From positions 1 to 36,966 of IMG/VR virus record IMGVR_UViG_3300028553_000079: a stretch of DNA of 36,966 bases, one strand, 5' to 3'. Positions within the stretch are counted from its first letter, which is position 1. The number at the start of each line of letters is the position of its first letter. The position numbers were made by a program, and so were the translations under genes. The notes below the pieces were generated by a model. It saw only the letters and a program-made list of their open reading frames with translations. It was not told the origin of the DNA and did not search any database. Below, in pieces: positions 1,889 through 36,966 of the stretch. The stretch comes from a virus.

Positions 1889-4405
1889 CTATACGAAAAA
1901 GTCTTCCAATGATTGTTTTGGTTCGGACTGCCAGCCAACTGCATCAAGGATCGGAAGAATAGGATCCAAGAAGGTCTTTTCAAATTGCAGGTCATAGTCT
2001 ACATACTTATTGATCTGCAGTTCAGGCGGAAGGTAATCCGGGAATGCAATTACGTTTTCACGTAAAGTGTTTGGTGTCTTGAGATAACAAAACTTTATCT
2101 TTTCACCATTTTGAATCAGAGTGTACTTCTTTTCAAGTCCACGATCCTTAATAGCAATATTATATACTATTGCACCACGAACATGAATAGGTACACCTTT
2201 TTTATAACGAGTTGTCTTATCAGTCCACTTTTTAATATCGCTTATTCCCCGCGGGAACGACACTTGTTCGGGCGGTAACGTAGAGAAGTATTTTTTAAAA
2301 GCTTGAATAGCGCCCTGAGTTTTAACTTCCGAACCGGAGATAATGACCTTGAACAATTCTTTAAGAGCCTCCCGACACGCTGCTGGTGTAGACGACTTAA
2401 TGGCTTCAATACCCATGATTTTGAGTTTTGGTTCTGCATATTGTACACCTTCGTTATTATGGACATTAAGGATATATCGCTTTTTAGCAGTCCAGATACC
2501 GCGATCAGCAATTGCCTCACGCTTCATTTCCATACGATTAATCTTACAGTTGAACTTATTAAACATTTCACCATAAGCATCGTTCAGAGTTGTTGTAAAT
2601 GTATCCTCACAGATCTTGTCAAGGAAGACAACAGGATCGTTTGGCTTGAATTGATTAACCATATCACCAAATGAAACATAAAGTGAATCTGTATCGATTG
2701 CAATAACATAATCTTTATTCTTGGATTTAAGAATAGAGTTCATCTTTTGGTTCATTGCCTTCTCAGCCCAACGAATCGCCATCTGACCAGTGAGTGTAAT
2801 ACCCTCAGCGACACGTAGATCAAAGTAACGGAAGTATCTATTACCAAGCGCACCATACAATGAGTTCATCAGGATCTTAATAGACATCTGCTGGTTTTCA
2901 TATCGAGAAATTGTACGTTCGATTTGAATAATCTTTTGTTTGTCTTTCTTATCAGTGTTCTCGAGTTCCTGTTCAGCGTCAAGCATCTTACGTTTAATTG
3001 CTTTACGCTCATCATAATACTGTACAATGATTGCAGGGATCACGCCTTGCTTGGTAGTATTAAACCTAACACCATTCGCGGCCATACAGGCGTCAGGAGT
3101 GTTATCAGTATTGTTAGTACCATTCAAACAAGAATCAGGATCAACTCCTGATATTACGCCATCAATGATTGTTTCAGGACTCATGTTCCATTGCACAATG
3201 ATGTTAGGATAAAGTGATGCTAAGTCAAAAGAACATACCCACTCATGTAGACCAACCTGAGGATCTTTAACATAACCGCCGGGAAAGGTTGCCTTATACT
3301 TATCGGTGTTAGGTGGAATGATAACGTTCTTATTCATTAGATCACGATAGATGATTGTATCCCAGATCGTTGTTGTACCAAACGTATCAGAATAGTTCAC
3401 ACCACCACGATATGCCATTGTAAGGGCAAGAGTAATAAGACCCATCTTATCTTCGAATCGTTCAATAAGTTCTACATCTCGAATGTTATAATCAATAAAC
3501 GTTTGATGGTCATTCTTATATAGAGAGTGTAGAGAACCAAACTCTTCATAGGACAACTTATTCTCACCAAGAACGACATAGGCAATATGATCAAGTTTAT
3601 ATGATTCTTGAGCACCATACGAATAACCAAACTTTTGAAACAAGTCTAGATAATCGAGTTGTTGAATACCATACAATTCATATGCGTCAAGTGATTTACC
3701 TTTGACGTTGATTTGACGGTAGTTAACCATTCCCCACGGACTTAGCTTCTTTACAGCATCTTCACCAAGAACACGTTTGATACGATTAGCCAAGTATGGA
3801 ACATCAAACAGACGAGTATTCCAACCTGTAACTACATCAGGACAATGTGTTTCAGAGTGCCAATGATCAAGGAATGCTTTGAGCAGCATAACCTCGTTAT
3901 CAACTTTACGATACACAATTGCTGTATGTTGCATGAGTGCTTTTGATGTATCAAAGTCGCCAAGACCCCAGACGAAGTAGCGATTGTCTGTATTAGACTT
4001 TACACAAATAGAGATGACTTCATGTGCGGCTTCTTCAGGAAATGGGAAACCATCGTCTGATGCAACCTCAATATCCAACGATGTTACATTGATTTTATCA
4101 CGATCAAACGAGATTTCGTTTGGATACTTCTCGTATAAGAACTGAGAGATATAATTAGTGTTACCATATATCTTAAAGTTTTCTACATCCTTATACGTTT
4201 CAACATACTCTTTTGCTTCTTTCATTGAGCCAAAAGGACGAGGTGCTACATGAGTACCATCGATCGTTGTATAACCAGTTTCTTTGTTTGAGGCCGTATA
4301 AAGAGTGGGTTCGAATTGCACTTTACGAGCAAAACGAACTCCATCATCATAACCACGATATAGTAAACTATTACCATACCTATTCACGCAAGTATAAAAT
4401 GTCAA
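1889..4405 (-). CDS. 43: Family B DNA polymerase (T4 gp43-like)
   Basis: Replicative polymerase with proofreading, 838 residues (T4 gp43 is 898). The 3'-5' exonuclease motifs are visible: Exo I LDIEVASDD (D111, E113), Exo II VTGWNTRLFDVPYLANRI (about 192-209) and Exo III YNIRDVELIERF (D310). Polymerase motif A is SFDLASLYPNIIV (about 392-404), motif B KILMNSLYGALGNRYF (about 510-525), and motif C AIDTDSLYV with the catalytic D571-T-D573. No inteins or gaps are seen. The start is TTG at 4405, which gives MTFYTCVNRYGN and matches the usual phage N-terminus; GGAGGG lies about eight bases upstream. It is driven by the promoter at 4434-4462 and should work with the gp45 clamp and gp44/62 loader encoded nearby. 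Confidence 0.97.
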   Translation of the reverse strand: MTFYTCVNRYGNSLLYRGYDDGVRFARKVQFEPTLYTASNKETGYTTIDGTHVAPRPFGSMKEAKEYVETYKDVENFKIYGNTNYISQFLYEKYPNEISFDRDKINVTSLDIEVASDDGFPFPEEAAHEVISICVKSNTDNRYFVWGLGDFDTSKALMQHTAIVYRKVDNEVMLLKAFLDHWHSETHCPDVVTGWNTRLFDVPYLANRIKRVLGEDAVKKLSPWGMVNYRQINVKGKSLDAYELYGIQQLDYLDLFQKFGYSYGAQESYKLDHIAYVVLGENKLSYEEFGSLHSLYKNDHQTFIDYNIRDVELIERFEDKMGLITLALTMAYRGGVNYSDTFGTTTIWDTIIYRDLMNKNVIIPPNTDKYKATFPGGYVKDPQVGLHEWVCSFDLASLYPNIIVQWNMSPETIIDGVISGVDPDSCLNGTNNTDNTPDACMAANGVRFNTTKQGVIPAIIVQYYDERKAIKRKMLDAEQELENTDKKDKQKIIQIERTISRYENQQMSIKILMNSLYGALGNRYFRYFDLRVAEGITLTGQMAIRWAEKAMNQKMNSILKSKNKDYVIAIDTDSLYVSFGDMVNQFKPNDPVVFLDKICEDTFTTTLNDAYGEMFNKFNCKINRMEMKREAIADRGIWTAKKRYILNVHNNEGVQYAEPKLKIMGIEAIKSSTPAACREALKELFKVIISGSEVKTQGAIQAFKKYFSTLPPEQVSFPRGISDIKKWTDKTTRYKKGVPIHVRGAIVYNIAIKDRGLEKKYTLIQNGEKIKFCYLKTPNTLRENVIAFPDYLPPELQINKYVDYDLQFEKTFLDPILPILDAVGWQSEPKQSLEDFFV

Positions 4406-4433
4406 AATAACAACCCTCCATCACAATACTACT

Positions 4434-4462
4434 ATTATACCACAAAATTGGGTGTATGTACA
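4434..4462 (-). promoter_or_regulatory. Early-type phage promoter for gp43
   Basis: CCTGTACA with TGTACA at 4457-4462, 17-bp spacer, TGTGG then TATAAT at 4434-4439. It sits in the gap between the Sm-like gene and gp43, with the transcript start expected about 25 bases before the gp43 TTG. Confidence 0.8.
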
Positions 4463-4467
4463 GGTTT

Positions 4468-4776
4468 TTATACGATGATCTTTTGAGGGCCTGGAGTGAT
4501 GATTTTGCTAAACATATTCTCATATTGCTTCTGTAGACCATCAACTGGATCTGCAGTAAACATAATATGATCATGCTTAATAATTAACCCATCAGAAGAA
4601 GCATTTGAGTATGCCATGAATGGAGCAAGTCCAAGAGAGTTAGATTGTGTAGGAATAAGGATTGCAACATCTTCAACGCGAATAGCGTTTTGGCCGTCTG
4701 TAGTTCTTGTATCTGTGATTACGTTACAGATAAGTTCTTCACCTGATGTCAATCGAACAATTTTAATAGTTGCCAT
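4468..4776 (-). CDS. Small Sm/Lsm-like protein upstream of DNA polymerase
   Basis: A 102-residue protein starting MATIKIVRLTSGEELICNV, then AIRVEDVAILIPTQSNSLGL and a tail with DHIMFTADPVDGLQKQYENM. The opening [IV]-x-L-x-S-G-E-E-[LV] strand-turn-strand resembles the first half of an Sm fold, and the protein at 19608-19973 opens the same way (VKLSSGEEVVGYI). They look like paralogues; a role in RNA binding is inferred from the fold only. The start at 4776 has only a weak GGAA upstream and follows the GC-rich structured stretch. The gene ends 6 bases before the -35 of the gp43 promoter. Confidence 0.5.
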   Translation of the reverse strand: MATIKIVRLTSGEELICNVITDTRTTDGQNAIRVEDVAILIPTQSNSLGLAPFMAYSNASSDGLIIKHDHIMFTADPVDGLQKQYENMFSKIITPGPQKIIV

Positions 4777-4797
4777 AATATTTCCATGTTAAAATTA

Positions 4798-4905
4798 TAA
4801 AATGCTGGTTACTTTATCCAGCGTGCATTGACGGAGCACAGTCCAATTGTCCGGACGCCTTTTGCCGTAGCTACGAACGGTCCCAAGGTGGGATTACATG
4901 CATGG
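4798..4905 (-). ncRNA. GC-rich structured non-coding stretch upstream of the Sm-like gene
   Basis: This lies between the methyltransferase stop (4911) and the Sm-like gene start (4776) and contains no substantial ORF. By hand count 43 of the 75 bases in 4821-4895 are G or C, against AT-rich surroundings. On the minus strand several short stems can form: CCCA/TGGG, CCGT/ACGG around GTAGCTAC, GTCC/GGAC, GTGC/GCAC, and finally GCTGG/CCAGC (4804-4822) followed by a T-rich run. It may be a leader element, small RNA or attenuator. It does not fit a tRNA. The class is unknown. Confidence 0.4.
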
Positions 4906-4910
4906 GTATT

Positions 4911-5504
4911 TTATACACGCTTAAATGTAAATGAACCAATATCTTCACGACCAAGGTCAGATTCAATTGTTGATTCTTCAATACATTCAAAACCGTAATT
5001 TGCCATGAATTCTTTTAATCCATCCGATGTATAATACCAACAGTGCTCATCAGGACGGAAGTGTTTACTTCTAAGTATATGTGCTTTATCTTTATATATT
5101 GGACAAGACACGAATACGTATTTACGAACAAGCGAGAGTAGGTGTTCAGGATTATGTATATGTTCTAATGCATCCCAAAATGACATAGCATCTACTTCGC
5201 ATGGTTCAGTAAATTTATCAACTGATTTCATCCACTCAATTGCTGAAGGGTTAATATCAAATCCCTTAGCAAATGGAATAGCTTTAATGAATGCTCCTGA
5301 ACCAATACCAATATCAATCAATGAGTCAAATTGATATTTTAAAACCATGTCAACGCGAGCAGTATTAAGATCACGACCTATTTGTGTATCTTCATATGTA
5401 AGATACTTTTCCCAATACGCCTGATCATATGGCGCTTCTTCAACTGGATAGTAACCTATACCTAATCGAGGAAACCAGATAAGTTTATCACTTTCCTTTG
5501 TCAA
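4911..5504 (-). CDS. Class I SAM-dependent methyltransferase
   Basis: A 197-residue Rossmann methyltransferase of the Methyltransf_23 type. SAM-binding motif I reads LIDIGIGSGAFIKAI, the acidic end of strand 2 GFDINPSAIEWM, and a motif-IV-like stretch AMSFWDALEHIHNPEHLL. The acceptor is not predictable. The first 17 bases overlap the end of the GT9 gene upstream, so the two are probably translationally coupled, and together with 6350-7189 they form a three-gene cassette. Such trios are usual in sugar or surface-glycan pathways, and sugar O-methylation is one option. The gene ends just before the GC-rich structured stretch. Confidence 0.8.
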   Translation of the reverse strand: MTKESDKLIWFPRLGIGYYPVEEAPYDQAYWEKYLTYEDTQIGRDLNTARVDMVLKYQFDSLIDIGIGSGAFIKAIPFAKGFDINPSAIEWMKSVDKFTEPCEVDAMSFWDALEHIHNPEHLLSLVRKYVFVSCPIYKDKAHILRSKHFRPDEHCWYYTSDGLKEFMANYGFECIEESTIESDLGREDIGSFTFKRV

Positions 5505-6348
5505 GTAAATCCCCTAGTGTTCTTGTTAACGTTTTAACTGATAAGTTTTCAACGTTTAAATTTTTGTACATTGTTCCAATCTTTTCGGGCTTAACCCAAT
5601 TCGTTTGGAATGCTCTCTTTGGAAAGTAGTCTGACCAAAGCATAAGTGTTGGCGTATTTAAGTGTTGGCTTATAATAGTATTACCTCCACACCAACCAAC
5701 AAAGGCAGAAGCACCACGAATGAGTGATAAGAGTTCGTCTAAACTTGTATCACCACACCAATTTTCAATCCCAGCATCTTCTAGTTGTTTATTGAATGGT
5801 CCATCCCAAGTAGAACCGGTCAGTATTAAACGGTAACCTTTAATTGAACTTAAGAATTCTTTAATCTTTTCAGGTGTTAAATTAGCAACCCATTGAGTAA
5901 ACATACCGTGATCAGAAAAGTAAAATATAATATACGGTTCTTTTATCTTAGACTCTGTACCTTTTAAATCTATTTTGTAATCCCAGTTTGTTTCATACTT
6001 TGGTAGAATGTTTTTCATTTGGTCGCCTACTCGTAGTTGACCATTTACACATAAATATGAATCAAATCCTAAGAAGCCTTTTTCTTCTGATCCATTACGA
6101 CCAGTCATATAACTTCTTCGAAAAACTTTCTTTTGTCGAGAGTCTAAGTCTTCAATTTTAGTATTTAAGTATCCCCCAAACTTTACGAATGGGATACGCC
6201 GTACAAAATCTTCTGACCTTGGACGTCCATCGAAGTTCCAAACGTGTACTTCAGGAATTTCACCTGGACAGTTCTTCTCAATCCAAGATTCTAATTTTAG
6301 CATTACCCAGTGTATATCACCAATGCCGGGAATAGTTAATATTTTCAT
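5488..6348 (-). CDS. GT9-like (heptosyltransferase-type) glycosyltransferase, second copy
   Basis: A 286-residue protein starting MKILTIPGIGDIHWVMLKLE, with the G-x-G-D nucleotide-sugar strand-loop of GT-B family 9 enzymes. A second Rossmann half carries YRLILTGSTWDGPFNKQL and then DELLSLIRGASAFVGWCGG, which resembles the D-x-G-x-x-H region where GT9 enzymes bind the ADP-sugar. The classical His is absent (GWCGGNTIISQHL). Donor and acceptor are unknown. It begins one base after the stop of the GT9 gene at 6350-7189 and overlaps the methyltransferase by 17 bases. A glycan-modifying role is inferred from this context. Confidence 0.7.
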   Translation of the reverse strand: MKILTIPGIGDIHWVMLKLESWIEKNCPGEIPEVHVWNFDGRPRSEDFVRRIPFVKFGGYLNTKIEDLDSRQKKVFRRSYMTGRNGSEEKGFLGFDSYLCVNGQLRVGDQMKNILPKYETNWDYKIDLKGTESKIKEPYIIFYFSDHGMFTQWVANLTPEKIKEFLSSIKGYRLILTGSTWDGPFNKQLEDAGIENWCGDTSLDELLSLIRGASAFVGWCGGNTIISQHLNTPTLMLWSDYFPKRAFQTNWVKPEKIGTMYKNLNVENLSVKTLTRTLGDLLDKGK

Positions 6349-31435: not shown

Positions 31436-32542
31436 TTAGTATTTATCAGATACCCAAGCGGTAGACCAGACATCCCCTCCAGCAGTAAACGCACCTTCTT
31501 CTGCAACTTCATTTAATCCATCATCAGTAAATCCAAATGGAACTAAATCGTCCTCAATCATTCTTTGATGTTCAGCAAACATCAGTGTTTTAATATCAAT
31601 ATCAGTCTCATTGATAAAGAATGGTGTAGTAGCAAACCATCCAAACAATACTAAGTTCATCATTAAGTCATCGTGATTTCCAGGACTAGCTTCATATGAA
31701 GCGCCCATTGCAACAAACGTTGATAACTCAAGGATAGTGTCGGAATCAACAACTGTAAGCTTATTTTGTTCAATTAAGTCTTTAATGTTTGAGCAACCAA
31801 TACGTTTAATCTTCTTATTCATATTAACACCAATAGCATCGGCCTTTAGTGCTGATTCGATGAATACGTTCTCGTATTCTAAATCGTAGTATAACCCATT
31901 ACATACTACTTGTCCAGCATCATTTGATTCAATAATAACATAAGCTTCATTGTACGTTTTCGCATACTTATATATAATATCAGGAAAGAGTAATGGAGAT
32001 ATAAGATTATCGCGATAAACAGCGACTTGCTTAAATGGCTTGACGCTAACGTCGATTACGTTAAACGTAGAATAATCCTGACCTCGTCCCTTTGCTACAT
32101 CAACAAAGATCATATATTGATGTGCTTTTTCAGGTTTGTCATAAACCTTGACGTTATCTTGAGTGTAGATAGGCATGGCTGCCTTTAGGCCTAGCAATAT
32201 ATTACCCGAGATAAGCGTATTTCCTGTTCCAAGGAACGTATTATGAGATACTAATATATCATCATGTGAATATATTCTACCACCATCAACATTGACAGGA
32301 TCATAGAAGTATTCGCCTTGATCAATAACTTCTATTAATACTACTCGCTTTCCAATATTTTGACCTACAACAATATCTTTAGAAAACACCTCAGAGTTAT
32401 CAACAATAAACTTATGATCAAACGCAGTCTTTAAACTAGATCCATCTTCAAAATCAAAGCGCAAAGACTTATCATGCCAATATCTTTTGACACCGTCAAA
32501 ACTTTTAAAACCATTAGGTGTTAGTATTTGTATGTTTGTCAT
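31436..32542 (-). CDS. 17: Large terminase C-part: split-intein C-fragment fused to the nuclease domain (T4 gp17-like)
   Basis: The 368-residue product has two parts. Residues 1-101 are an intein C-fragment: MTNIQILTPNGFKSFDGVKR, a block-B-like DGSSLKTAFDHKF (His 43; the usual Thr is Ala), then ...NVDGGRIYSHDDILVSHN ending in the terminal His-Asn (block G). Residue 102 is Thr, the +1 nucleophile of the C-extein TFLGTGNTLISGN. The C-extein (267 aa) is the gp17 RuvC-like nuclease: YMIFVDVAKGRGQDYS (D148), YVIIESNDAGQ (E205) and PGNHDDLMMNLVLF (D291/D292). Trans-splicing with the N-part would rebuild ...QEFGN-TFLGTGNTL, matching intact T4-like terminases, about 544 residues in all. Confidence 0.92.
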   Translation of the reverse strand: MTNIQILTPNGFKSFDGVKRYWHDKSLRFDFEDGSSLKTAFDHKFIVDNSEVFSKDIVVGQNIGKRVVLIEVIDQGEYFYDPVNVDGGRIYSHDDILVSHNTFLGTGNTLISGNILLGLKAAMPIYTQDNVKVYDKPEKAHQYMIFVDVAKGRGQDYSTFNVIDVSVKPFKQVAVYRDNLISPLLFPDIIYKYAKTYNEAYVIIESNDAGQVVCNGLYYDLEYENVFIESALKADAIGVNMNKKIKRIGCSNIKDLIEQNKLTVVDSDTILELSTFVAMGASYEASPGNHDDLMMNLVLFGWFATTPFFINETDIDIKTLMFAEHQRMIEDDLVPFGFTDDGLNEVAEEGAFTAGGDVWSTAWVSDKY

Positions 32543-33248
32543 TATATAATGCTGGTAAAATTTTAGTTCGTGCTTTGTTTAGAACTATATTTCTAATAGT
32601 TGTTGACGATACACCATAATTTTTATGGTACTCTTTTGCGAATATACCATGTGGTGTTGATAACATTCTTCCTAATTTAACAGCTTCTTTATTATAATCT
32701 TCACATTTTTGTTCATATGACTTTATCAAAGATTTGTATAAAACACGTATTTCATCTACTAGTTCATCACTAAGCTTTGGCGGTTTTAACCTTTTACCTT
32801 GACGTATTTTTGACTGATGTTCTCTGTACTCTTTCCTTTGCCACGTTTTCTTAGATCTTTCTGACATTACTTCAAGATTCCCAACACACCTTTTCTTGGC
32901 AGATTCAGACATCTTTTTACGAGATTTGTCGGAAAAAATGTATCCTAAAGTATTGAACTTTGGTGAAGAATGACCCCAGCCTTTACCAGTTTCGGTATCA
33001 TTTAAACCATTGTTAAAAGTATCATACACAGCAATATAATGTGATTCTTTATTTTCTATATAAGATCGATCAAACGATTCTTCAAGTACTTGAATATCAA
33101 ATTCATGACCAATAAAACGCTTAGACCTTTTATGATCACCCATCCGCTGCTTCAGCCTCATGGCCAAGGTTATACCAACGTATTGCTTTAAGTCTGACTT
33201 CCTCGTCAATAGATAAACCACACTCTTCTCTTGTTCTAATTGCGTCAT
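32514..33248 (-). CDS. GIY-YIG homing endonuclease inside the split terminase intein
   Basis: A 244-residue protein. The N-terminal GIY-YIG core is SVVYLLTRKSDLKQYVGITL with R-L-K-Q-R-M-G-D-H and the catalytic Glu in DRSYIENKESHYIAVYDTFN. NUMOD-type repeats follow (FSDKSRKKMSESAKKRCVG, then KTWQRKEYREHQSKIRQGKR) and a C-terminal helix-turn-helix (YGVSSTTIRNIVLNKARTK). It overlaps the terminase N-part by 113 bases and the C-part by 29, each in another frame, so it sits exactly where the intein is interrupted. It has its own late promoter within the terminase coding region, and AATAGG before the ATG. Confidence 0.88.
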   Translation of the reverse strand: MTQLEQEKSVVYLLTRKSDLKQYVGITLAMRLKQRMGDHKRSKRFIGHEFDIQVLEESFDRSYIENKESHYIAVYDTFNNGLNDTETGKGWGHSSPKFNTLGYIFSDKSRKKMSESAKKRCVGNLEVMSERSKKTWQRKEYREHQSKIRQGKRLKPPKLSDELVDEIRVLYKSLIKSYEQKCEDYNKEAVKLGRMLSTPHGIFAKEYHKNYGVSSTTIRNIVLNKARTKILPALYNDKHTNTNT

Positions 33249-34152
33249 ACAAATCGCCTATTCTTATATCGTATACAATTTTATTTATACAAATTGTAAT
33301 TTGAGAAGAACTTTCAAGGCAATTGCCAAACTCTTGTGAAAACTGAAGTTCTGACGTGTTAGATATAGTCAACTTCTTCCATTCTTCATCACGTCCAGGA
33401 ACGTCCCACCAGTCAACTCGAAATGGTTGATACTGACTAGTGCCTTGTACAGCACCTTCCCATAACTTATGAAATGTATTACCAATACCATTTGCAGTTG
33501 AGGTAATAATAACCTTAGTGTTCTTACCTGCTACAACCACAGGATATGTAGATGTATAGAACTCTTGAGCGTTGTCTACGAATGCAAACTCATCAAGGAA
33601 GAGTAAGTTAACGGACATACCGCGAATAGAACTCTTTGAGGTTGAACCTGATACAATCTTAGAGTTATTTGAAAACTCAATAGATCTCTTATTCAACGAT
33701 TTACAACCCGGCTGTAAAAAGAATGGTAAGTTTTCAAGTGCTAATGTGATACGACCTAACATTTCTTGAGCTGTTGCACCTTTGTTTGCTAACACCGCGA
33801 CAGTGACTTCAGGATGGAATATAGCATACCAGAGGATGTAGATTACGCTGCTAATGGATTTACCTGACTGACGACATGCAAGAACGATCGAGAATCGATT
33901 TGAATCAAAGTGTTCAAACATTCTCTCTTGGTATGCATACAGATTAAATGGTACTAAACCTTCATCAAGAGAAATAACTTTAGCATAGGTATGAGCAAAG
34001 TATTGAGGCGACTTCATACACTTAGTGTATTCAGTTACTTCTTCTGCAGTCCATTGTTGTTGAACGCCATCACGCTTGACCTGTGGGTTACCATTGTATC
34101 CCGTATCATGGTTTAGCATTGTAACACTTGAGGAATTAGACGAGTGAATCAT
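33136..34152 (-). CDS. 17: Large terminase N-part: ATPase domain fused to split-intein N-fragment (T4 gp17-like)
   Basis: A 338-residue product. Residues 1-277 are the gp17 packaging ATPase: Walker A LACRQSGKSISSVI (K98), Walker B NLLFLDEFAF (D187, E188) and coupling motif IITSTANGIGNTFHKLWEG. At Cys278 (33319-33321), right after QFSQEFGN, the terminase sequence ends and an intein begins: CLESSSQITICINKIVYDIR and IGDLYDAIR, an intein block A. Only 61 intein residues are present before the stop, so block B lies on the other gene. The break falls between the ATPase and nuclease domains. It should excise by protein trans-splicing with 31436-32542. An alternative start is Met12. Confidence 0.93.
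   Translation of the reverse strand: MIHSSNSSSVTMLNHDTGYNGNPQVKRDGVQQQWTAEEVTEYTKCMKSPQYFAHTYAKVISLDEGLVPFNLYAYQERMFEHFDSNRFSIVLACRQSGKSISSVIYILWYAIFHPEVTVAVLANKGATAQEMLGRITLALENLPFFLQPGCKSLNKRSIEFSNNSKIVSGSTSKSSIRGMSVNLLFLDEFAFVDNAQEFYTSTYPVVVAGKNTKVIITSTANGIGNTFHKLWEGAVQGTSQYQPFRVDWWDVPGRDEEWKKLTISNTSELQFSQEFGNCLESSSQITICINKIVYDIRIGDLYDAIRTREECGLSIDEEVRLKAIRWYNLGHEAEAADG
33274..33298 (-). promoter_or_regulatory. Late promoter in the loop of a hairpin, driving the terminase-embedded GIY-YIG gene
   Basis: TATAAATA at 33282-33289 is flanked exactly by perfect eight-base inverted repeats, TACAATTT and AAATTGTA (33274-33281 and 33291-33298). It lies inside the intein N-fragment codons, 34 bases before the endonuclease ATG. 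This provides a late, terminase-independent transcript for the endonuclease. Confidence 0.7.
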
Positions 34153-34171: not shown

Positions 34172-34546
34172 TTAATCGTCATCTACGTCTATGACTTCAT
34201 CGCTTGCAGCAATAGTAGCCTTCATCTTATCAATGAGGATACGCTGCAAGTCTGTCGATGAGCCAACGAATACGTTGTTTTGAGTCAAGGGAGGTTTCTC
34301 ACCTTTTACGATACTCGTCTGAGAAACATCTTTCTTTTTCTTTTGGAGTTCCATTAAACGATCTGCAATTTCTGCATTCTGTTTAATCATTGTCGATAAG
34401 ACTTCAAACGCTCGAGGATGCTCTGATTCGCGAGCAAGGTCAAGCATAAGACTAATTGCCTCGTCACCTTTTTCTACAAGTTCGTAGTATTTAGACCTAG
34501 CAAATTCATAATCATCTTGTACGTCTTTTTCGTTAGGTGTTGTCAT
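34172..34546 (-). CDS. 16: Small terminase subunit (T4 gp16-like)
   Basis: A 124-residue helical protein (T4 gp16 is 164): MTTPNEKDVQDDYEFARSKY, EKGDEAISLMLDLARESEHP, RAFEVLSTMIKQNAEIADRL, then a lysine stretch and NNVFVGSSTDLQRILIDKMK. This is the typical coiled-coil core and C-terminal gp17-contact region of small terminases in marine T4-like phages. I use ATG 34546, inside the last codons of gp15; an in-frame ATG at 34576 would add ten residues. The end is acidic (EVIDVDDD). It recognises DNA and stimulates the gp17 ATPase. Confidence 0.88.
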   Translation of the reverse strand: MTTPNEKDVQDDYEFARSKYYELVEKGDEAISLMLDLARESEHPRAFEVLSTMIKQNAEIADRLMELQKKKKDVSQTSIVKGEKPPLTQNNVFVGSSTDLQRILIDKMKATIAASDEVIDVDDD

Positions 34547-35564
34547 GGCTATAAGTTGGATATAATGGTGATTCAATAATATTAATGATTGGGTCTACTT
34601 CATTCACAAGCGAAGCAATCGTTGCTGATGCTGAAGAAGTATTTCCTGCAAGCGTTTCACCTTCTTCAAAGAAACCATCGGGATTTGATACTGTAATTAA
34701 GCTTCCGGCTATTGCTGTTATACGACCTACAGCGCCTGACGTAGTACCTATAACATTTTCTCCTACCTGAAATACGCCTGTCAATCCACTTATTGTTACA
34801 AGTGTACGATCTGGAATAGGATTTGTATATGTTGTTACAAGAGAATACACATCGTTTTCTCCTGCAGTTGAAGGAGATACTTCAATCTTAATCGTTTGAA
34901 TTGGTATTGCTGAAGAAGATCCAGCAAAGGAGGCTTCAGTCTTCTTAATGATTGGACCAAGCGCAGACTTAGGACCATAGTATTGTACTCTTGTCTCAAA
35001 CTCAAGTGTAGTAATAATAGCACGGCGTTGTACAAAGTCACCTTCATAGTCATCCGACATCGTTACAGATTCAAGCGTAAAAGGCATATCATACTTAAAG
35101 TTACCATCAATGTTCTTAACAGTTACATTATATTCAGGTTGAAAGTATGGTAATATCTGTTCTAAAATTTGTAGACCATCATCCTGAGTTTTTGACAAGA
35201 TGTTTAATTGAATATTAAGTTTATATGTTACGGGATACAAAATCGTTTGACGAGATGTTGGACTAGTAGAAGGTAGATTACGAACAGTACCCTTTTGTAG
35301 TTTAGTGTCAGAGTCATATGTAAACGCAATAATTTCAAATGACATGCGAGGTAAACGAATCGCTAACTTAGGATCATTTAAATGTGCTTCGTCTGCAATG
35401 CGCGCAAGAAACTTCTGACGAGGACCATATGATAATGGTACCTTAATCGTAGATAGAATATTACCCGCTGAGTCACGCTTTGTGACTTTTAAATTATTGA
35501 ACAATGTACCAAATACGGCAACAGCTCGTTTTGTATGTTCATGATAAAAATATTGGTTAAACAT
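34533..35564 (-). CDS. 15: Tail sheath terminator/stabilizer (T4 gp15-like) with C-terminal extension
   Basis: A 343-residue protein (T4 gp15 is 272). The start MFNQYFYHEHTKRAVAVFGT aligns with T4's MFGYFYNSSFRRYATLMG, so I use ATG 35564, two bases after the GIY-YIG stop, not the upstream in-frame codon at 35594. KVPLSYGPRQKFLARIADEA, LPRMSFEIIAFTYDSDTKLQ and TLESVTMSDDYEGDFVQRRA belong to the family core. Roughly the last 95 residues are an addition with two similar units (GVFQVGENVIGTTSGAVGRI and GFFEEGETLAGNTSSASATI), a beta motif common in marine phage tail proteins. The hexamer caps the tail tube and sheath for head joining. Confidence 0.92.
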   Translation of the reverse strand: MFNQYFYHEHTKRAVAVFGTLFNNLKVTKRDSAGNILSTIKVPLSYGPRQKFLARIADEAHLNDPKLAIRLPRMSFEIIAFTYDSDTKLQKGTVRNLPSTSPTSRQTILYPVTYKLNIQLNILSKTQDDGLQILEQILPYFQPEYNVTVKNIDGNFKYDMPFTLESVTMSDDYEGDFVQRRAIITTLEFETRVQYYGPKSALGPIIKKTEASFAGSSSAIPIQTIKIEVSPSTAGENDVYSLVTTYTNPIPDRTLVTISGLTGVFQVGENVIGTTSGAVGRITAIAGSLITVSNPDGFFEEGETLAGNTSSASATIASLVNEVDPIINIIESPLYPTYSHDNT

Positions 35565-35566
35565 TT

Positions 35567-36208
35567 TTAATTTGTCCGTTTTTGTATTTTGCAATTATTA
35601 AAATGATATCTAGTCATATTAGGCCCATTGCCAACTTTCTGACAATAAGGACAAGTTTTTTCTACAAGATTATGTTTTATACCTTTACCATAAGACCTAC
35701 CAGTAAGAACTTTGCTCATGTGTTTTTTAAAATCTTCTGTTCTTGGTCCGTATACTTTTCCAGTTAATGCTTTACTTATACCCATAGATCTAGCTTTTCG
35801 CGTTTCTGGATTTGCCCAAGTTATAGCATTAAGCGCAGTCATGCTTTCACTAGTCCATGCTGTTTTTGGTGGCCCGATTGTTTTAACTCTATTCAGAGCT
35901 TTAATACTCATTTTTTCTTTGGTTTCATCTGAATATTTGCCAGACACTCCAGCTTCTTCTTTTAAGTTAGCAAAAGCTTTATTACTTATTACATTAAACT
36001 TATTACTATAAAAAAGACCATACTGTTTAAGTTCGCTTTCAGTTTCATATACGCCTAATATATTAGTTGTAACATCGTAACCATATTTTTTAATATGACG
36101 CAACCAGTACACGCCAGAACCAGTGTATTTTTGCACATCTTTTCTTTTAGTATAACCAAGATATTTTAAACCAGTTACATTATGAGTTTTTAAATATAAT
36201 GTGTACAT
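35567..36208 (-). CDS. GIY-YIG-type homing endonuclease between gp14 and gp15
   Basis: A 213-residue protein. MYTLYLKTHNVTGLKYLGYT gives the Y-x-L-Y...Y-L-G-Y-T variant of the GIY-YIG motif; YTGSGVYWLRHIKKYGYDV and ETESELKQYGLFYSNKFNV (Glu) continue the nuclease fold. Two NUMOD3-like repeats follow (YSDETKEKMSIKALNRVKTI and ARSMGISKALTGKVYGPR), then a zinc-finger-like CPYCQKVGNGPNMTRYHFNN with a final Cys. The ATG at 36208 is one base after the gp14 stop (TAATATG). A longer in-frame start at 36247 would overlap gp14 by 38 bases. It lies cleanly between two structural genes. No late promoter of its own is visible. Confidence 0.82.
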   Translation of the reverse strand: MYTLYLKTHNVTGLKYLGYTKRKDVQKYTGSGVYWLRHIKKYGYDVTTNILGVYETESELKQYGLFYSNKFNVISNKAFANLKEEAGVSGKYSDETKEKMSIKALNRVKTIGPPKTAWTSESMTALNAITWANPETRKARSMGISKALTGKVYGPRTEDFKKHMSKVLTGRSYGKGIKHNLVEKTCPYCQKVGNGPNMTRYHFNNCKIQKRTN

Positions 36209-36209
36209 A

Positions 36210-36966
36210 TTATGGTTCACCAAATGGATTTGAAGTTGAAAAATCAATTATATCCTGACCGGCTTGTTCAAAAATTTCATTCTGAGCTAAGGGTTCTTGA
36301 GGTATGTATAAATCAGGATCGTCAATATTATATACTCGTGTAATAGTCCAACCAGTATTTGCAGTATTGTTTAAGTTGATTATACTTCCTGGCGTAAATG
36401 TTCTTATTGTTCCGTCAGTCGACATTGAAGAGGCAATATAAAGATTTGCAATACGATTGACACCGCCAACAACTCGTGCTTGAGTCTCAATGAAGTTAGC
36501 AACTTCGCCTGTTACGTTCTCTTCTTCAATATCTGGTTCAGGTGAAGATGGAATTGAAATCGTTGGCGCAACAGTATAACCTGTTCCCGGCACAGTAATA
36601 TTAATATCTACTACTGATCCTTGATTGTTCAATACTAATAATCCTTCAGCGCGTATACCACCGTTTGCAGGAGCAGAGAATGTTATACTTACAGGTTGTA
36701 CGTAGCCAAACCCTGCAACTGTAATTGTAGTATCAACAACTGAACCTCCTGAGATCGTTGCAGTCGCTGATGCTGAAGATTCTATCTTTGGAGAAATGAT
36801 TTGTTTTACGATATCACCTGCTGCGTATCCAATAGTACCACCTTGGATTTGTACAACAACTTGTGGTCCATAGATCTGTTCAAAGCGATCAACATCTTTA
36901 ACACCTGTTGTAAACTTCTCAGCAGAGTATTCAAAGAGCTCACACTGTAGTTCATATGTTGGTAAT
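36210..36966 (-). CDS. 14: Neck protein (T4 gp14-like), 5' end beyond the window
   Basis: The frame is open from the right edge to TAA at 36210, giving the C-terminal ~251 residues. It begins LPTYELQCELFEYSAEKFTT, then GVKDVDRFEQIYGPQVVVQI, which is how gp14 homologues continue after their first third. Two repeats of about 45 residues follow (SVVDTTITVAGFGYVQPVSI and SVVDINITVPGTGYTVAPTI), a G-x-G-Y beta repeat typical of marine T4-like phage structural proteins. The end is IDFSTSNPFGEP. gp14 with gp13 joins head to tail. The identification also rests on the 14-15-16-17 gene order. Confidence 0.85.
   Translation of the reverse strand, partial: LPTYELQCELFEYSAEKFTTGVKDVDRFEQIYGPQVVVQIQGGTIGYAAGDIVKQIISPKIESSASATATISGGSVVDTTITVAGFGYVQPVSITFSAPANGGIRAEGLLVLNNQGSVVDINITVPGTGYTVAPTISIPSSPEPDIEEENVTGEVANFIETQARVVGGVNRIANLYIASSMSTDGTIRTFTPGSIINLNNTANTGWTITRVYNIDDPDLYIPQEPLAQNEIFEQAGQDIIDFSTSNPFGEP

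Follow-up and report, generated by a model that had tools for sequence, protein, structure and literature searches.

A T4-type phage terminase gene broken between putative split-intein halves by a GIY-YIG endonuclease gene, and relatives that appear to have lost the endonuclease

We examined the large terminase gene (terL) in a 36,966-nucleotide stretch of viral DNA (IMG/VR record IMGVR_UViG_3300028553_000079, positions 1 to 36,966), referred to here as the window. All features for which window coordinates are given lie on the minus strand. The gene is fractured: two terL open reading frames (ORFs) carry intein halves, and an endonuclease ORF lies in between and overlaps both. The first ORF, TerL-N (33136–34152; 338 residues), contains the ATPase half of gp17 in residues 1–277 (Pfam Terminase_6N, 1.5e-15; Protein Data Bank (PDB) gp17, E 1e-49) followed by an intein N-fragment (IntN). 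It matches gp17 up to QEFGN, after which Cys278 opens a 61-residue extension. From Cys1 to about residue 28 (CLESSSQITICINKIVYDIRIGDLYDAI; 33238–33321), this extension is an IntN core with block A, delimited by aligning relatives, including L129, whose intein is contiguous (handles of this form denote the loci compared). The C-terminal tail that follows (RTREECGLSIDEEVRLKAIRWYNLGHEAEAADG; 33136–33237) is, judging from substitutions by codon position, the 5′ end of the endonuclease gene (KSVVYLLTRKSDLKQYVGIT) read in an alternate frame.

The last ORF, TerL-C (31436–32542; 368 residues), was delimited by PDB and Pfam matches. Its residues 1–101 form an intein C-fragment (IntC; 32240–32542) with block B His43, block F Asp81, and a terminal His100-Asn101. 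From residue 102, the Thr+1 of TFLGTGNTL, it continues as the RNase H-like nuclease half of gp17 (31436–32239; Pfam Terminase_6C, 4.8e-17; gp17 nuclease, E about 1e-44). In the numbering of gp17 (PDB 3cpe), the N-half runs to about residue 379 and the C-half begins at 380, indicating that extein residues are neither lost nor repeated. Joining the exteins gives a sequence that runs collinearly with T4 gp17 and with relatives lacking an intein, for example C48C1 (QEFGNTFFGTGNTL).

The central ORF (32514–33248) encodes a 244-residue putative homing endonuclease with a helical C-terminal region. Its Pfam GIY-YIG match (4.4e-5) is above the cut-off, it matches PHROG 314 (homing endonuclease, 4.8e-11), and family alignments show that the catalytic motifs Y12, Y23-V-G, R31, E65, and N83 are kept. 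The best fold match of its AlphaFold2 model is the I-TevI catalytic domain (E 8e-3, probability 1.00). The endonuclease frame overlaps TerL-N by 113 nucleotides (33136–33248) and TerL-C by 29 nucleotides (32514–32542). A Shine-Dalgarno-like AGGCG, recognized by reading the sequence, lies 5′ of its ATG within the intein codons IGDL (33255–33259); several relatives have AGGAG instead. In L106 (4261–5016) and L125 (1921–2676), the endonuclease frame has no ATG where one usually stands, at intein codon 25.

Homology and conserved residues place the two fragments in a known intein group. IntC matches PDB 6dsl_B over residues 3–100 (E 4.8e-13; 39% identity in the alignment); this chain is CatC, the C-fragment of Cat, an engineered AceL/GOS-TerL consensus intein. 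The residues of a class 1 intein are present, namely Cys1, block B His43, Asn101, and Thr102 (+1). The break follows the first helix and separates block A from block B, which is an S2-type split with a core IntN of about 28 residues and an IntC of 101, as in the AceL and GOS TerL inteins (PMC13014065). A HINT fold is seen in a model of the contiguous L129 intein (predicted local distance difference test score 86), which is a model of a relative rather than of the window's own pair. The best PDB matches of this model are VidaL and Cat, both atypically split inteins, and its helix 25–34 sits at the S2 break point.

These results bear on a sequence-only reading of the same DNA. It had described a terL fractured between intein halves, and every element is present at the coordinates it gave, with homology, recurrence, and purifying selection (below) behind it. 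Its opening 101-residue IntC ending in HN before Thr is borne out by the CatC match and block B His43, its natural T4-like terminase on joining the exteins by collinearity with gp17 and C48C1, and its AceL-TerL-like split between blocks A and B by IntC homology and the L129 fold. The search it proposed for intein-free terminases found them, C48C1 among others. Two of its points held in part: the proposed database comparison succeeded for IntC but not for IntN, and the GIY-YIG gene overlaps both halves but is a separate ORF rather than nested in the intein polypeptide.

The arrangement recurs. A second, independent IMG/VR assembly (L089) contains the same 2717-nucleotide region with 1 difference, which argues against an assembly artefact. 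Our scans for relatives were pattern-based and yielded 16 haplotypes at this terL position, more than 3% diverged from each other, a count that is a lower bound. The same endonuclease family in three ORFs is found in 12 of the 16. IntN is fused in frame to a different GIY-YIG protein in two (L003 and L134), terL is split without an endonuclease in one (L127, four contigs), and one (L129) has a contiguous terL with an intein. Cys1 and the block B His are kept in 16/16 haplotypes and the terminal Asn in 14/16; the +1 nucleophile is Thr in 14, Ser in 1, and Cys in 1. The ratio of nonsynonymous to synonymous substitution rates (dN/dS), where estimable, is 0.06–0.31 for intein fragments, endonuclease, and exteins (0.06–0.19 for IntC), indicating purifying selection, and the IntN of the closest haplotype pair shows zero nonsynonymous changes. 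The only terL in a 146.6-kb relative is the broken one, and no intact second copy was found in the 37-kb window. The loci with the in-frame fusion occupy L003:3174–5845 and L134:1818–4473. Their C-fragment ends in Thr-Gln, without the terminal Asn and the penultimate His, and Ser replaces the block F Asp; the splicing chemistry of these two may differ.

Recent horizontal movement is visible directly in the alignments. L095 and L100 are 93–100% identical over IntN and the endonuclease, 74–84% identical over the C-fragment, and 72–92% identical in the exteins. The sharp identity step between endonuclease and C-fragment implies that IntN and the endonuclease moved recently without the C-fragment. 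Between L002 and L096, the synonymous divergence (dS) is 0.37–0.62 within the element, and extein dS is saturated. Extein trees interleave intein-bearing and intein-free terminases, and holding the intein-bearing terminases together is only marginally rejected (approximately unbiased (AU) test, p 0.046). The identity steps, the dS contrast, and the interleaved trees fit homing.

Taken together, we assign a probability of about 0.88 to the reading that the locus is a mobile, S2-split class 1 intein of the AceL/GOS-TerL group, inserted where the ATPase half of a T4-type terminase meets the nuclease half, that the intein halves would trans-splice to a seamless gp17, and that the endonuclease would drive homing. 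Under this scheme, the overlapping ORFs would yield three proteins: TerL-N with IntN, the GIY-YIG endonuclease, and IntC with TerL-C. The intein fragments would pair, Cys1 would attack the N-junction, the acyl group would pass to Thr+1, and Asn101 would cyclize, releasing a seamless gp17 with the junction QEFGN-TFLGTG. The endonuclease would cut intein-less or endonuclease-less terL of co-infecting phages, and repair would copy the element. Internal deletion of the endonuclease may leave the gene split, as in L127, or lead to its re-fusion as a cis intein, as in L129.

Several observations weigh against this reading. The Thr of the usual block B TxxH is Ala in the window intein and in most relatives. 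IntN alone gave no match in a PDB sequence search, even at E 10, so its assignment rests on position, Cys1, the relatives, and the L129 model. Tests on the extein trees give only modest support for horizontal spread (AU p 0.037 and 0.046). Finally, the insertion lies near a domain boundary, which makes a non-covalent assembly of the halves conceivable. This last point underlies an alternative in which the ATPase and nuclease halves, separated where the two halves of gp17 meet, associate non-covalently, as is reported for a phage ribonucleotide reductase split by a homing endonuclease (Friedrich et al., 2007), and the intein fragments are inert remnants; the missing terminal Asn and penultimate His of L003 and L134 and the missing penultimate His of L129 could hint at such decay in some lineages. 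However, inert remnants would decay, whereas here the catalytic residues persist in both intein halves despite large synonymous divergence, and purifying selection acts on both fragments. Moreover, L129 restored a contiguous intein instead of losing it. We consider this alternative improbable.

Another alternative is that the halves are joined at the RNA level by a group I or other self-splicing intron encoding the GIY-YIG endonuclease, an enzyme type characteristic of T4-type group I introns. An Rfam search of the locus found no group I intron and no other RNA family, and the sequence flanking the endonuclease encodes intein in frame with each extein half. The chance that RNA splicing joins the halves is negligible.

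The split-intein reading leaves the tail of TerL-N to be accounted for. The sequence-only reading had counted 61 intein residues from Cys278 and suspected that the end was non-intein read-out. The 61-residue extension stands, but its intein-like core is about 28 residues and is followed by a tail of about 33. The endonuclease ATG falls in intein codons 25–26, and past this ATG the N-frame continues through the GIY-YIG coding sequence shifted by one frame (KSVVYLLTRKSDLKQYVGIT becomes CGLSIDEEVRLKAIRWYN). In ten endonuclease-bearing haplotypes, the difference rates at N-frame codon positions 1/2/3 are 0.187/0.161/0.295 in the non-overlapping part of IntN and 0.287/0.154/0.150 in the overlap, where N-frame position 1 is the endonuclease third codon position. 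Differences in the overlap thus peak at endonuclease third positions, indicating that the endonuclease frame governs the tail, and for endonuclease-bearing loci the suspicion of read-out is supported.

Vibrio phages VP-1 and K469 carry a homologous GIY-YIG domain in frame after IntN, at nearly the window's distance. This speaks against an ancestral intein origin for the tail and argues that its DNA coded for endonuclease first. A frameshift between IntN and an in-frame GIY-YIG domain of the VP-1/K469 type would yield the window's layout, and the tail most likely arose through the N-frame running out of frame into the endonuclease gene. The competing view, in which the tail belongs to the intein proper and is under selection, draws on L003 and L134, where GIY-YIG is absent from the other frame yet the N-frame carries tail-like sequence (shuffle p 1.5e-4 and <5e-5), and on a helix within the tail of the L129 model. 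We judge it unlikely given the third-position bias, an extension that ends anywhere from 52 to 69 residues from Cys1, and the finding that GOS-TerL IntN shortened from 37 to 27 residues still splices (PMC11766414). The tails of L003 and L134 would allow a later role for this segment.

Two haplotypes without a complete endonuclease gene record what may follow. Both L127 and L129 retain about 33 codons of the endonuclease 5′ end, and in L129 this remnant has about 90% DNA identity to L095/L100. From the other end of the gene, L129 preserves the out-of-frame segment SRTEKLPNAY*, which resembles the endonuclease C-terminal RTERLPSIY and was equaled by 0 of 5000 shuffles. The 3′ counterpart in L127, ELPSICKS*, lies partly inside the start of the C-fragment, and support is weaker at this end; here the endonuclease is internally deleted and terL remains split. 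In L129, known from a single contig, positions 3889–6048 form one 720-residue terminase ORF in which the intein halves are re-fused in cis through a linker derived from the two ends of the deleted gene for the endonuclease. When modelled, the remnant-coded part of the L129 intein comprises a helix (42–49) and a low-confidence stretch (56–68), and the intein ends in SSN rather than SHN. The L129 exteins group with the endonuclease-bearing L102 and L091 (97/86 and 97/93), on a long branch.

With remnants at both ends and this extein grouping, the likeliest history of L129 is an internal deletion of its endonuclease followed by a return to contiguity. Contiguous mini-inteins without an endonuclease at another terL site (L081 and L087) would suit the opposite polarity, in which L127 and L129 preserve an ancestral endonuclease-free state. 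That polarity is very improbable against the 5′ codons and 3′ piece held by L129 and its extein nesting (97/86) among endonuclease-bearing loci. We sought a further re-fused copy like L129 and found none. A limited literature search revealed no prior description of the deletion series or of a re-fused locus like L129. We consider it probable that the atypical split of natural inteins marks one phase of a cycle that can run both ways, in which an endonuclease settles at S2 of terminase inteins, the polypeptide is always broken there, and after deletion the gene may stay split (L127) or heal to a cis intein with an out-of-frame remnant linker (L129).

In cultured and environmental phages, endonucleases occupy this internal intein position both at the window's terL site and at a second terL site. 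GIY-YIG proteins are found there in VP-1, K469, Vibrio phage 1.244.A, PX29, and Serratia phage 92A1; TnsA-like endonucleases in Escherichia phage G2494 and Thanatos-2 (Pfam TnsA-like) and, by resemblance, in PspYZU05; and a T5orf172 endonuclease in Campylobacter CP21. A single ORF joining N-fragment, endonuclease, and C-fragment was seen in 0 of 28 endonuclease-bearing loci, counted by inspection. Beyer et al. (PMC6801210) place homing endonuclease domains within inteins at a single conserved site and reason that a large insertion at the site related to it by symmetry would clash with the exteins. An obligatory chain break at S2 would fit this steric argument, with the S2 position not identical to their N35 site. 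Here, several endonuclease families sit at a site other than the one conserved in inteins (PMC6801210), and the chain is always broken.

Several further loci belong beside these. The second terL site, near Walker B, is likewise occupied by a split intein of this kind whose halves flank an endonuclease (L014:1901–4981 and L141–L145); in L014, a 23-residue stretch is repeated around its N-junction. The terminase of Campylobacter phage CP21 (L152, 103–4410) holds several inteins, contiguous near Walker A and both split and contiguous further on, with the T5orf172 endonuclease; the intein part of its C-half is unannotated in the record. Escherichia phage G2494 (L154), Pseudomonas PspYZU05 (L155), and Shewanella Thanatos-2 (L153) have a broken terL with TnsA-like endonucleases, and the G2494 terL is annotated as a misc_feature 'similar to large terminase'; these three relatives are accessible to laboratory work. 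Escherichia phage kaaroe, listed on E. coli K-12 MG1655, has a related intein at another site of its terL.

The surroundings are those of a T4-type phage. A gp16-like terminase small subunit lies immediately upstream (34172–34576; PHROG 445, 1.6e-36; Pfam DNA_Packaging, 8.8e-9), confirming a T4-type packaging operon. The morphogenesis block of the window includes a gp15-like sheath stabilizer, gp16-like small terminase, gp17, sheath, tube, portal, scaffold, and major head protein. A second endonuclease-like ORF (35567–36247) lies directly upstream of the gp15-like gene and overlaps its start. With a weak NUMOD3 match and partial 34% identity to the L003-type GIY-YIG protein, it is likely another homing gene in the same operon. 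A promoter and terminator scan gave results at chance level, and an NCBIfam search returned nothing informative.

Family members are naturally evolved candidate trans-splicing pairs with a short N-fragment, a format wanted for protein semisynthesis, and a Cys1/Thr+1 pair would widen the choice. The relatives also form a series at one site of one essential gene (intein-free, broken with an endonuclease, broken without one, and re-fused), so that the way in which split inteins arise, and perhaps revert, can be tested directly.

Comparison with known systems shows that this kind of locus, an S2-split TerL intein in a fractured gene, is already known and that the window adds a member. The sequence-only reading had thought the combination new in an assembled phage context. 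This does not hold, as Aeromonas phage PX29 (GenBank GU396103) is annotated with 17A that 'contains putative N-intein' and 17B that 'contains putative GIY-YIG endonuclease and C-intein', and other cultured phages have similar layouts. Like the window, PX29 gp17A/gp17B (and the AsFcp phages) have terL broken at the same position with GIY-YIG between the halves; the PX29 N-fragment follows QEH|C and its C-fragment ends in THN. Unlike the window, PX29 has its endonuclease, of a SegE-like GIY-YIG type, fused to the C-half in one ORF, uses Cys+1, and has an intein C-fragment only 27% identical. The cultured phages 92A1 (Serratia) and VP-1, K469, 1.244.A, and EniLVp02 (Vibrio) also have a split intein at the window's terL position. 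The three-ORF order of 92A1 is that of the window, whereas VP-1, K469, and 1.244.A fuse IntN and endonuclease in frame and EniLVp02 lacks an endonuclease; all five use Cys+1, in contrast to the window's Thr+1.

Fractured genes with split inteins and an endonuclease ORF between the halves were reportedly described by Dassa et al. in 2009. Friedrich et al. are said to have described, in 2007, a phage ribonucleotide reductase split by a MobE-type homing endonuclease, with halves that function unspliced. As in the window, the essential phage gene there is interrupted by a homing endonuclease gene, but no intein is involved. AceL NrdHF likewise is a gene in two ORFs with intein halves and a GIY-YIG gene between them, but its intein is of class 3 with a canonical split site (98/48 residues) (PMC7891396). 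A Campylobacter phage terminase with an intein and an endonuclease has also been reported (PMC3322345).

The closest characterized inteins, AceL-TerL, GOS-TerL, and Cat (PDB 6dsl), share with the window the S2 split after the first helix, a short IntN, an IntC of about 100 residues, and a terminase host (PMC13014065). Their IntN is 25–37 residues (PMC11766414), within a reported range of 15–37, compared with the 61-residue extension here. AceL and Cat are Cys1/Cys+1 and GOS is Ser1/Cys+1, in contrast to the window's Cys1/Thr+1 (PMC11766414). The novelty earlier claimed for Thr+1 is weaker: the characterized TerL inteins AceL, GOS, and Cat all use Cys+1, but Thr+1 is not rare among inteins at large, where Cys1 is paired with Thr+1 in 12% of one set (PMC11766414). 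What is peculiar to the window is its predicted Cys1/Thr+1 pair and its apparently overprinted 61-residue N-fragment.

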